DNA from: an uncultured Collinsella sp.
GTDB taxonomy: Bacteria > Actinomycetota > Coriobacteriia > Coriobacteriales > Coriobacteriaceae
DNA: 64,000 nt
Direction: 5' to 3'
Assembly (NCBI GenBank): GCA_949285915.1
Contig: CASDZW010000001.1
Span: 38,480 to 102,479, forward strand
Under the pieces are notes generated by a model. That model made no database searches and was not told where the DNA came from. It was given only the letters and a program-made list of their open reading frames with translations. Made by a program: the position numbers and the translations under genes. Position 1 is the first letter of the stretch. Every line of letters begins with the position of its first letter. Below are positions 31,620 through 44,513 of the stretch, in pieces.

Positions 31620-32294
31620 TTAGCCTAATGCCCAAGCCGCCAGCTGGTAGAAGAGCGGGTATACCGTGAAGTTGAAGTACACGCCCACGATGTCGATGCG
31701 CAGAATCTGCGGCAGCAGGTAGAGCACGATGATAAGGATGGGCATCGCGTACTGCTGGATCTGATAGTAGGTCTCGAGCGCGTGGCCCTTGAGGAAGGGA
31801 ACGAGGATCGATGAGCCGTCGAGCGGAGGCAGCGGGATGAGGTTGAAAAACGCGAGCGACAAATTCACGAGGATGGCGCTCATAAGAAACTCGAGGGGCA
31901 GGGTCGAGCCCGTGGCCATGACAAGAGAGCCCACAACCGGTACCCGGCAAAGTGCGGCGAAGACGACGGCGAGCACGATGTTGGACGCAGGACCGGCGAG
32001 CGCCACGATGAGCTCGTCGCGCTTAGGGTTCTTGAGGTTACCGAGGTATACGGGAACCGGCTTTGCAAAGGCAAAGACCGGACCGCCGAGCACGATCATG
32101 ATAAGCGGCAGGAGCACCGTACCAAAGGGGTCGATGTGCGCGAGCGGGCTTAACGAGACGCGCCCGCGAGAGCGCGCCGTCTTATCCCCCATCGCCCAGG
32201 CGGCAAGGGCGTGAGCGCTCTCGTGCACGCAAAGACCGATGATGAGGGCGAGGGCCTGGATGAGAAGCCCTGCGATATAGGTAATGTTGAGCAT
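31620..32294 (-). CDS. Site-2 protease family (M50) membrane metalloprotease
   Basis: 224 residues, about six membrane segments. Zinc motif HESAH at 24-28 and third ligand region NLIPLPPLDG at about 160. This is the short SpoIVFB/YwhC-like S2P without PDZ, commonly encoded before scpA. Substrate unknown. ATG chosen nine bases after the stop of the small membrane gene; a GTG nine codons further up would overlap that gene. Confidence 0.9.
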   Translation of the reverse strand: MLNITYIAGLLIQALALIIGLCVHESAHALAAWAMGDKTARSRGRVSLSPLAHIDPFGTVLLPLIMIVLGGPVFAFAKPVPVYLGNLKNPKRDELIVALAGPASNIVLAVVFAALCRVPVVGSLVMATGSTLPLEFLMSAILVNLSLAFFNLIPLPPLDGSSILVPFLKGHALETYYQIQQYAMPILIIVLYLLPQILRIDIVGVYFNFTVYPLFYQLAAWALG

Positions 32295-40871: not shown

Positions 40872-41936
40872 CTAAAGCGTCTCGATCTCGCGCATGAGCT
40901 CATCGATGATAGCATCCTCGCTCACTTTGCGCAGCACCTCGCCGTGGCGGAATATGAGCCCGCAGCCGCGCCCGCAGGCAACGCCCACGTCCGCGCCGGC
41001 GGCCTCTCCGGGTCCGTTCACCACGCAGCCCATGACGGCGACGGAGATGGGCTTGGTCACGCCCTTGAGCCTGCGCTCCACCTCCTCGGCGATAGGAATA
41101 AGGTCCACCTGCGTGCGTCCGCAGGTGGGGCAGCTTACGAGCTCGGGTCCACGGCGGCGAATGCCGAGGCACTCGAGGATGCCCCAGGCAACGGGCGGCT
41201 CCTCGACGGGGTCTGCCGTGAGGGATACACGCAGCGTGTCGCCGATGCCATCGGCAAGAAGCGCGCCCAGCCCTACGGCGCTTTTGATGGTGCCCTGCTT
41301 CACCGTCCCCGCCTCGGTGACGCCGAGGTGCAGCGGCACCTGCGGAAGCTCGCGCGAGAGAGCGCGGTAGGTGGCTATGGTTGCGGGCACGTCATGGGCC
41401 TTGGCGGAAAGGACGATGTTTTCAAACCCGCGACCTTCGAAATGCTCGACGAAGCGCAAGGAGGACGCAACGAGCTTCTCGGGAAGGGAAAGATTCTCGT
41501 TTTGCGCGATGTCATCCTCAAGCGACCCGGCGTTCACGCCGATGCGGATGGCGATACCGGCTTCTCCCGCGGCGTCGATCACCGCGTCCACCTTCTCCCA
41601 GGAGCCGATGTTGCCGGGGTTGATGCGAAGCTTTGCCGCCCCGGCCTCGATAGCGCCGAGCGCAAGGCGATGGTCGAAGTGAATGTCGGCCACGATGGGC
41701 ACGGGTGACTCGGCGCAGATGGTGCGGAAGCTCTTGAGGGCCGCGCGCGAGGGCACCGAGACACGCACGATGTCGCAGCCGGCATCCGCAAGAGCGCGCA
41801 CCTGGTCCAGCGTTGCGGCGGCATCGACGGTATCGGTCGAGGTCATGGACTGCACGACTACGGGCGCTCCCCCGCCGATGGTCACCTCGCCCACGCGGAC
41901 GGGACGGGTCTTGGTGCGTGCGGCGTTCTCAAACAT
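40872..41936 (-). CDS. ispG: 4-hydroxy-3-methylbut-2-en-1-yl diphosphate synthase
   Basis: MEP-pathway Fe-S enzyme. 354 residues; TIM-barrel start VQSMTSTDT, ADIHFDHRLAL, RINPGNIG, and cluster ligands in SCPTCGRTQVD plus MGCVVNGPGEA. Located between rseP and proS as in many bacteria. Confidence 0.97.
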   Translation of the reverse strand: MFENAARTKTRPVRVGEVTIGGGAPVVVQSMTSTDTVDAAATLDQVRALADAGCDIVRVSVPSRAALKSFRTICAESPVPIVADIHFDHRLALGAIEAGAAKLRINPGNIGSWEKVDAVIDAAGEAGIAIRIGVNAGSLEDDIAQNENLSLPEKLVASSLRFVEHFEGRGFENIVLSAKAHDVPATIATYRALSRELPQVPLHLGVTEAGTVKQGTIKSAVGLGALLADGIGDTLRVSLTADPVEEPPVAWGILECLGIRRRGPELVSCPTCGRTQVDLIPIAEEVERRLKGVTKPISVAVMGCVVNGPGEAAGADVGVACGRGCGLIFRHGEVLRKVSEDAIIDELMREIETL

Positions 41937-41948
41937 GCGTGACCCCCT

Positions 41949-43316
41949 CTACAGGATGAAGCGGATGATGTCTGCGCGGAGCAGGTAGATAAAGAGCGCA
42001 CCGAAAAGGGCGATGCCGATGTAGGAAAGCGCGGTCTGCACTTTTACCGAAAGCGGGCGGCGGATGACGGCCTGCACGATCTCGATGACGAGCTTGCCGC
42101 CGTCGAGCGGCGGTATGGGCAGGAGGTTCATGAAGCCGAGCGAGAACGAGATGAGGGCGGCCACGCTGAGGAAGGTGGAGGCTCCGCTTTCCGCCGCAGC
42201 GGCGGCCATGACGGAGATGCCCACCACCGAGGTGGAGCTGTCGAGGACCTCGAGCGTGCGCTGGGGATTCACGAGCTGCATGATGGAATCGGCCGTGAGT
42301 GCAAGATAAGACCAGGTCACACTTGCTGCCTGAGCGGGGTCGAGGTGCACCGTCTCCTGCGGCGCGGTGATGCCGATGGCGTCGGCGCCCTCGGCGTCTA
42401 TGGTCACCGTGAGCTCTTTGCCGTCGCGGGCGAGGACCATGTCGAAGGGCTCGGACAAGTCGAGCGCGCCGATGATGTTTGCGATATCGGAGAAGCTGTC
42501 CGTGGCGGTTTCCGCAACAGAGAGGACGGTGTCCCCGGCCTCGATGCCGGCCGCTGCTGCCGGTGAGGCCGTCTCAACGGTTCCTATCGTGTTCACGTCC
42601 ATGGTTGCGGTGACGCCCACAAACATGTAGATAGCCATAAGGAGAAGAAAGCCGGAGACGAGGTTCACCGCAACGCCTGCGACGAGGATGAACGCGCGGG
42701 CGAAGAAGCCCTTGCCTGCGTACGTGTGTGAGCGCTCTCGCTCAAAGAAGGCGTCATCCCCCATCGGAGGCTCCCAAGCCTCTCCGGAGCTGGTCGCTTC
42801 GCCACGCTTGAATTGCGCGCCGTCAAGAAGCGTGGCTCCTGCCTTGTCGCGCGGGGCGGCCGCATAGGTAGAGGGGTAGTAGACGCCGGGCTTCTCGCCG
42901 GCCGCCTCATCATACCTGCCCTCGATAGAGCCCCAGTCGAGGAGCTGCACGCAGGCAGCGAGCGCATCTTCCTCAGAGATGGAGAGCGCCTCGGAAAGCT
43001 CCGCGACCGAGGTCGTGCCGCGGCGGTGCACCTCGGCAAGGACGCGCTTGGCGATTGCGCTGTCGCCTTCGGGCTCCATGCCGCAGACCATGGCGTACCC
43101 GCCGAGCAGAAGCGGCGTTACGCCGAATTTTGTGCCGATACGGCGCGAGACGTGGTGGAGATTGAACCGGCAGGGCAGACCGAGGAAGAACTCGGTGACA
43201 CGCACGCCGACGGCGCGCGATGCTAAGAAGTGACCGCCCTCGTGCACAAACACGAGCGCGGACAACATGAGGAGACCCCAGAACAGGGGTCGGATGATAC
43301 CAAGGAGCGTCTCCAT
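41949..43316 (-). CDS. rseP: RseP-type site-2 protease with inserted winged-helix-like segment
   Basis: 455 residues. Zinc motif HEGGH at 25-29 in the first membrane helix; LLLGGYAM near 70; membrane helix about 207-232; PDZ domain about 243-320 (AGIEAGDTVLSV); third ligand region LPIPPLDGGKL near 410. Between 81 and 195 lies an insertion not usual for RseP, whose first half (AIAKRVLAEVHRRGTTSVAELSEALSIS, read in parts) looks like a winged helix. Expected to cleave membrane-bound regulators such as an anti-sigma factor; the substrate is not known. Between dxr and ispG. Confidence 0.9.
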   Translation of the reverse strand: METLLGIIRPLFWGLLMLSALVFVHEGGHFLASRAVGVRVTEFFLGLPCRFNLHHVSRRIGTKFGVTPLLLGGYAMVCGMEPEGDSAIAKRVLAEVHRRGTTSVAELSEALSISEEDALAACVQLLDWGSIEGRYDEAAGEKPGVYYPSTYAAAPRDKAGATLLDGAQFKRGEATSSGEAWEPPMGDDAFFERERSHTYAGKGFFARAFILVAGVAVNLVSGFLLLMAIYMFVGVTATMDVNTIGTVETASPAAAAGIEAGDTVLSVAETATDSFSDIANIIGALDLSEPFDMVLARDGKELTVTIDAEGADAIGITAPQETVHLDPAQAASVTWSYLALTADSIMQLVNPQRTLEVLDSSTSVVGISVMAAAAAESGASTFLSVAALISFSLGFMNLLPIPPLDGGKLVIEIVQAVIRRPLSVKVQTALSYIGIALFGALFIYLLRADIIRFIL

Positions 43317-43343: not shown

Positions 43344-44513
43344 CTAGCGGGCGCGGGCGGCGAGGTAGGCGCGCGCCTCGGAACGTGCCCAGAGGTCGAT
43401 CTGCTCGAGCTGTTCGAGCGATTCTACCCGCAATGCGTCATGCTGCTCGAGGCAATGGGCCACGCAGCCGTCGATATCGGTGAATGAACACGATTCTGCA
43501 AGGAAGGCGGCCACGGCGACCTCGTTGGCAGCGTTGAGCACGCAGGGCGCGGTGCCGCCCGTGCGCGCGGCCTCCTCGGCAAGCGCGAGGCACGGGAAGG
43601 CTTCGGTGTCGGGCGCACCGAAGGTGAGCTGGGCGATCTCGCGGAAATCGATGCGCTCCGCCGGCGTCTCCCAGCGATCGGGGTACGAAAGGGCATACTG
43701 GATGGGCAGGCGCATGTCAGATGCGCCAAGGTGGGCGATGACCGCACCGTCGCGGTATTCGACCATGGAGTGTATGCGGCTCTCGCGCTGGATGAGGACG
43801 GGAATGCGCTCCACAGGAAGGCCGAAGAGCTGCATGGCCTCGATGCGCTCGAACCCTTTGTTCATGAGCGTGGCGGAGTCGATGGTGATCTTGGCACCCA
43901 TGTTCCACGTGGGATGCGCGAGCGCGTCGGCACGGGTGACGCTTTCAAGTTCGGCGCGCGTGCGCCCGAAGAAGGGGCCGCCCGAGCAGGTGAGCCAAAT
44001 GCGGTAGACCTCCTCGGCGCGCTCACCGAGCAGGCACTGGAAGATGGCGCTGTGCTCTGAGTCGACGGGCAGCAGCTGCCCGGCAGACGCCATGGGCATA
44101 AGGAGGTCGCCTCCGACGACGAGCGATTCCTTGTTGGCAAGTGCCAAGCGCTTCTCCCCTTTTAGGACGTGGTAACTCGCCTCGAGCCCGACGGCACCCA
44201 CAACGGCGACAAGGACCGTGTCTGCCTCGGGCGTATCGGCGAGCTCGGCAAGCGCGGAGACGCCGGTGAGAAGCTTGGTCCCCTTGGGGAGCTCAGAGAG
44301 ACAGGGGTCCTGAGTATGGGCATTATCGGTAACCGCGACGAGGGGTACATTGAACTCACGCGCGGCGGCGACGAGCTCGGCGGTGCGGCTGTGCGCGGAG
44401 AGCGCGACAACCTCGATGCGGTCGGGATGCTGGCGGCAGACGTCGAGCGCCTGCTGGCCGATGGAGCCCGTGCAGCCGAGGATGACGAGGCGTATGCGCC
44501 CGGCGTCGGTCAT
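43344..44513 (-). CDS. dxr: 1-deoxy-D-xylulose-5-phosphate reductoisomerase
   Basis: MEP-pathway step 2. 389 residues; NADPH motif GCTGSIGQQALDV, ANKESLVVGG, metal and substrate residues in PVDSEHSAIFQCL, TCSGGPF, and HPTWNMGAKITIDSATLMNKG (read in parts). Overlaps cdsA by four bases (ATGA). Confidence 0.97.
   Translation of the reverse strand: MTDAGRIRLVILGCTGSIGQQALDVCRQHPDRIEVVALSAHSRTAELVAAAREFNVPLVAVTDNAHTQDPCLSELPKGTKLLTGVSALAELADTPEADTVLVAVVGAVGLEASYHVLKGEKRLALANKESLVVGGDLLMPMASAGQLLPVDSEHSAIFQCLLGERAEEVYRIWLTCSGGPFFGRTRAELESVTRADALAHPTWNMGAKITIDSATLMNKGFERIEAMQLFGLPVERIPVLIQRESRIHSMVEYRDGAVIAHLGASDMRLPIQYALSYPDRWETPAERIDFREIAQLTFGAPDTEAFPCLALAEEAARTGGTAPCVLNAANEVAVAAFLAESCSFTDIDGCVAHCLEQHDALRVESLEQLEQIDLWARSEARAYLAARAR

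Follow-up and report, generated by a model that had tools for sequence, protein, structure and literature searches.

A winged-helix domain in the RseP-type site-2 protease of Coriobacteriia, probably cytoplasmic and possibly protein binding

What might a winged helix do inside a membrane protease? RseP serves as a model of how membrane proteins are selected for cleavage; its best-studied selectivity element, the PDZ domain, faces the cell exterior. Coriobacteriia include common gut bacteria such as Collinsella, and in a 64,000-nucleotide stretch of DNA from an uncultured Collinsella sp. (hereafter, the window) a sequence-only reading had marked an RseP-type protease with a hydrophilic insertion at 42732-43061 on the minus strand, corresponding to residues 86-195 of the protein. 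Its first half was proposed to be a winged helix and its second half a Pro/Gly/Ala linker. The gene and its surroundings comprise the following features.

41949..43316, minus strand: rseP gene, encoding a 455-aa group I site-2 protease (ORF, TIGR00054, M50, structural match)
43212..43313, minus strand: TM1, residues 2-35, with the HExxH zinc motif H25-E26-G-G-H29 (AlphaFold2 helix 2-35)
43086..43199, minus strand: membrane-reentrant beta sheet (MRE), residues 40-77 (AlphaFold2, four strands)
42618..42707, minus strand: TM2, residues 204-233, with R207 at its start (AlphaFold2 helix)
42381..42605, minus strand: single extracytoplasmic PDZ domain, residues 238-312, between TM2 and TM3 (PDZ_6, PDZ_2)
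42099..42107, minus strand: third zinc-ligand motif, L404-D405-G406 (LDG), on TM3 (invariance, 59 sequences)
43344..44513, minus strand: dxr, upstream neighbor (ORF, named from sequence)
40872..41936, minus strand: ispG, downstream neighbor (ORF, named from sequence)

The initial assignment as an RseP-type protease was borne out. The window protein scored 171.4 bits against TIGR00054, above the curated cut-off of 147.55, and matched Peptidase_M50 (7e-42), PDZ_6 (8.2e-07), and PDZ_2 (1.4e-05) in Pfam. The best structural matches of the full-length model were RasP, E. coli RseP, and A. aeolicus RseP, led by the RasP-EcsA model 9a6w (E=1.2e-21), with E. coli RseP 7w6x at E=1e-17. Residues H25, E26, H29, R207, L404, D405, and G406 were invariant across 59 homologues, and the four MRE strands were modeled at residues 40-45, 53-56, 63-66, and 73-77. 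Judged by gene order, the window protein is the standard syntenic RseP and not a paralogue, because it is set between dxr and ispG, an arrangement that recurs in most of 19 related loci (tblastn; limited by locus length). Elsewhere in the window (~31686-31940, minus strand), a 240-aa open frame contains a second M50-like stretch, which aligns with residues 363-451 (E=3.9e-5) and is perhaps a short site-2 protease. At another locus (L032, G244:C1:1568500-1572000), rseP is seemingly split over two frames covering residues 5-264 and 270-455, which appears to be a frameshift or sequencing error.

As claimed at the outset, an insertion does lie between the zinc-binding helix and TM2: it spans residues ~79-200, from the MRE beta sheet to TM2. 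Counted from GGY/GGF to a point 14 residues inside the R...AG..N motif of TM2, the stretch measures ~149 residues in the window RseP. In the RseP sequences that could be read cleanly from other phyla and from Actinomycetota outside the class, it is mostly 39-48 residues long, with two longer cases that look unrelated. The insertion divides into two parts.

42858..43061, minus strand: inserted winged-helix domain, residues 86-153 (AlphaFold2, Pfam MarR_2 and others, Foldseek)
42732..42857, minus strand: C-terminal half of the insertion, residues 154-195, Pro/Gly/Ala-rich (block pLDDT 91-97)

AlphaFold2, run at full length on the full alignment, returned a confident model (pLDDT 95.9, pTM 0.88 for the whole chain) in which the insertion is ordered, with helices at 86-99, 104-111, and 115-127 and strands at 101-103, 131-134, and 150-153. 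This order, alpha1-beta1-alpha2-alpha3-beta2-wing-beta3 with the wing between beta2 and beta3, is that of a winged helix. Modeled alone, the insertion gave identical elements (pLDDT 91.6). Its top Foldseek matches were mostly wHTH proteins, namely, Z-alpha 1qbj (TMt 0.78), ROK, MarR, and IclR, at weak E-values (0.008-0.07). Pfam MarR_2 was matched at E<=0.1 by 14 of 32 class-wide copies of the domain (best, 6.7e-06), and a sequence search of solved structures returned weak matches only, with a repeat protein on top. On the strength of these models, the inserted domain is predicted to have the fold of MarR-like regulators, which supports the winged helix originally proposed for the first half.

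The second half fared differently. Its Pro/Gly/Ala-rich composition was as described, but the linker was not recovered: the tail after the wing is predicted to be ordered (pLDDT 91-97), closing in a helix at 187-195, and residues 135-184 share 69% mean identity inside the window's family. Because the tail is predicted to be ordered and is conserved within families, the models indicate that it is no plain flexible linker. Its length varies, being long in the window's family and family f2, intermediate in family f3, and short in other orders, most members of which have just 33-35 residues aligned to residues 132-200. At two f3 loci (L239 and L241), the tail is lengthened by long Ala/Pro-rich segments.

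Conservation across Coriobacteriia, a check named in the sequence-only reading, was found to be broad. The full protein was matched in 292/298 Coriobacteriia genomes, the remaining six being drafts with completeness of <=90%. The match usually ran end to end in families f1 and f2; in f3 and other orders it came in two pieces, the N-terminal one covering the winged helix. The domain was seen in the RseP of all 23 families examined, out of 25 in the sample. The aligned insertions share the core GMEPG..D..L..xL..V...G......LA..LG....D.A...L..L.DWG.I, with residue L125 present in 109/110 sequences. Mean identity of the domain class-wide is 33%, equal to that of PDZ. Substitution rates show purifying selection on the domain (e.g., dN 0.35, dS 0.79-0.93), and in domain and tail alike amino acid changes are fewer than synonymous ones.

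Outside the class, the cleanly readable RseP sequences, whether from other phyla or from the rest of the Actinomycetota, lack the insertion; this statement rests on readable loci and a profile search, as the pattern-based reading failed or misfired at some loci. In a 246-genome phylum sample, the insert profile retrieved 22/22 Coriobacteriia at E<=1.2e-15, and its best match outside the class was 3.5e-6. At two loci of other Actinomycetota (L125 and L136), unrelated-looking stretches of 72 and 90 residues by the same count occupy the insertion site, which seems from these cases to be tolerant of insertions.

In a tree of the RseP core built without the insertion columns, the Coriobacteriia group together. 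A single member without the insertion was found (L230, G006:C1:134000-137500); it retains the dxr-rseP-ispG context and is nested among insertion-bearing members with modest support (0.72-0.86). Because this member nests inside the Coriobacteriia, the tree is most simply read as a single gain in the class stem followed by a single loss. The insertion is dispensable in at least one lineage, since the insertion-less member keeps normal synteny.

The cellular location of the domain can be approached through RseP topology. In E. coli, the loop between TM1 and TM2 first reaches the cytoplasm, then dips back into the membrane as the MRE beta-loop, and is cytoplasmic again ahead of TM2 (PMC12067869, PMC4597795). 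In the window protein, the insertion follows the last MRE strand and precedes TM2, and conserved basic residues come directly before TM2. Because the insertion lies between these two elements, we infer from homology to E. coli RseP that it should be on the cytoplasmic side, in the first cytoplasmic region. The basic residues agree with this placement, so that a cytoplasmic position is supported on both grounds.

The PDZ domain of the window RseP is extracytoplasmic; in family f3, no such domain was found. All 11 f3 members scanned lacked a Pfam PDZ match and kept the winged helix. In the f3 loci L054-L081 (e.g., L054:1498-2613), a short extracytoplasmic loop joins TM2 to the remainder of the protein, the PDZ having been lost. 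From its size and its place in the order, this family is probably Eggerthellaceae.

The third helix of the domain, which in a regulator would be the recognition helix, and the residue that follows it are informative about binding.

42936..42974, minus strand: recognition-helix equivalent, residues 115-127, acidic (alignment-based charge count)
42933-42935, minus strand: near-invariant W128, directly after the recognition-helix equivalent (106/110 sequences)

Seven recognition-helix positions were picked by alignment to regulator helices, with 12 GntR/MarR domains from the same genome as a control. At these positions, the family averages 0.40 K/R and 3.15 D/E, against 2.08 K/R and 0.58 D/E in the controls (net helix charge, Mann-Whitney P=3.7e-8; the sequences are related and P is indicative only). 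The helix is net negative in 106/110 sequences and basic to neutral in the same-genome regulators, and the net charge of the domain averages -6.0. The basic recognition-helix surface that serves as the criterion for MarR/GntR-type DNA binding is absent, while W128 suggests a protein contact.

We hypothesize that substrate recognition or partner binding is the best-supported option, and we see about an even chance that the domain sits at the protease entrance as a protein-binding module on the cytoplasmic side, selecting substrates or controlling access. This reading is favored because of the position of the domain, its conserved Trp and acidic helix, and the retention of the domain in the PDZ-less family. 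In E. coli RseP, substrate is bound by the MRE beta sheet and the C1 region (PMC4597795, PMC12067869), and protein-binding winged helices are known from archaeal RPA (PMC11686378) and Ska1 (PMC3923297). The winged helix would be inserted in the first cytoplasmic region, between TM2 and the MRE beta sheet, with which the unwinding substrate pairs. There it could bind either the N-terminal portion that single-span substrates expose to the cytoplasm or a partner protein in the cytoplasm; such binding would select substrates or control access from the cytoplasmic side. The domain would complement the extracytoplasmic PDZ filter and, in the PDZ-less lineage, perhaps replace it.

A less probable but credible alternative is that the domain is a structural add-on: packed against TM2 and the MRE beta sheet, it would stabilize the protease or a dimer of RseP and bind neither substrates nor partners. 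The entire insertion, including the tail, is predicted to be rigid, its fold is kept despite moderate sequence identity, and one lineage has lost it; the modest class-wide identity, no higher than that of PDZ, would also fit a mainly structural role. However, an acidic helix that is conserved and a Trp that hardly varies point to an interface, though possibly an internal one, and RseP elsewhere manages without such a brace.

A narrower form of the protein-binding reading, in which the domain docks one fixed cytoplasmic partner and makes no substrate contact, we consider rather improbable. Such a partner might be, for instance, an ABC ATPase, a sigma factor, or a downstream protease or unfoldase, and the link would resemble that of EcsA to RasP in Bacillus. 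Docking is a frequent role of winged helices, the full protein finds its closest structural match in the RasP-EcsA model, and RasP function in B. subtilis requires EcsA (PMC10128001). Yet the immediate neighborhood suggests no partner, and EcsB, rejected as a partner, was not found in 13 Coriobacteriia genomes. Likewise, anti-sigma proteins of the zf-HC2 type were set aside as substrates, none being found in the window's own genome (81.8% complete), so that the classical type of RseP substrate may be absent from it. Since no zf-HC2 was found in this incomplete genome and no EcsB in the 13 genomes, neither classical link explains the domain. One sigma neighborhood (L267) gave no lead. At another (L269, G000:C26), an ECF-like sigma factor frame is followed by a 254-aa multi-spanning membrane protein, with an ABC transporter ATPase nearby and no single-span anti-sigma gene seen.

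The proposal that a DNA-binding HTH couples cleavage directly to transcription, although fold and weak Pfam matches point to DNA-binding families, is very improbable: throughout the family, the surface of the recognition helix is acidic, unlike that of true regulators of the same genome, and the domain is net negative, which disfavors direct DNA binding. Judging from these sequences, the MarR-like domain has probably lost DNA binding. A tentative history, to which we give somewhat less than an even chance, is that the protease acquired a winged helix from a transcription factor in a single event in the Coriobacteriia stem; the domain then ceased to bind DNA, became a cytoplasmic gate for substrates or a partner, and let one lineage drop its PDZ. 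As a probably cytoplasmic, class-wide domain retained after PDZ loss, it provides a natural test case for control of site-2 proteolysis from the cytoplasmic side, of which no description for RseP was found in the open-access papers searched. Those papers likewise yielded no description of an RseP winged helix or of Coriobacteriia site-2 proteases.

Set against known systems, the Coriobacteriia protein shares HExxH, the MRE beta sheet, LDG, PDZ, and the dxr-rseP-ispG arrangement with the group I site-2 proteases RseP, RasP, and Rip1. It differs from them in a winged helix of ~70 residues with an ordered tail, which should be cytoplasmic, and in that one large family of the order has no PDZ. Group III site-2 proteases of the SpoIVFB type have a cytoplasmic CBS domain and no PDZ. 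They too bear an accessory domain in the cytoplasm, but one of another fold and, in SpoIVFB, at the C terminus, whereas the domain here is inserted after the MRE beta sheet. With MarR/TrmB-type winged helices, the Coriobacteriia domain shares the order of elements and weak but repeated Pfam matches; what sets it apart is an acidic recognition helix, a conserved Trp, and its embedding in a membrane protease.
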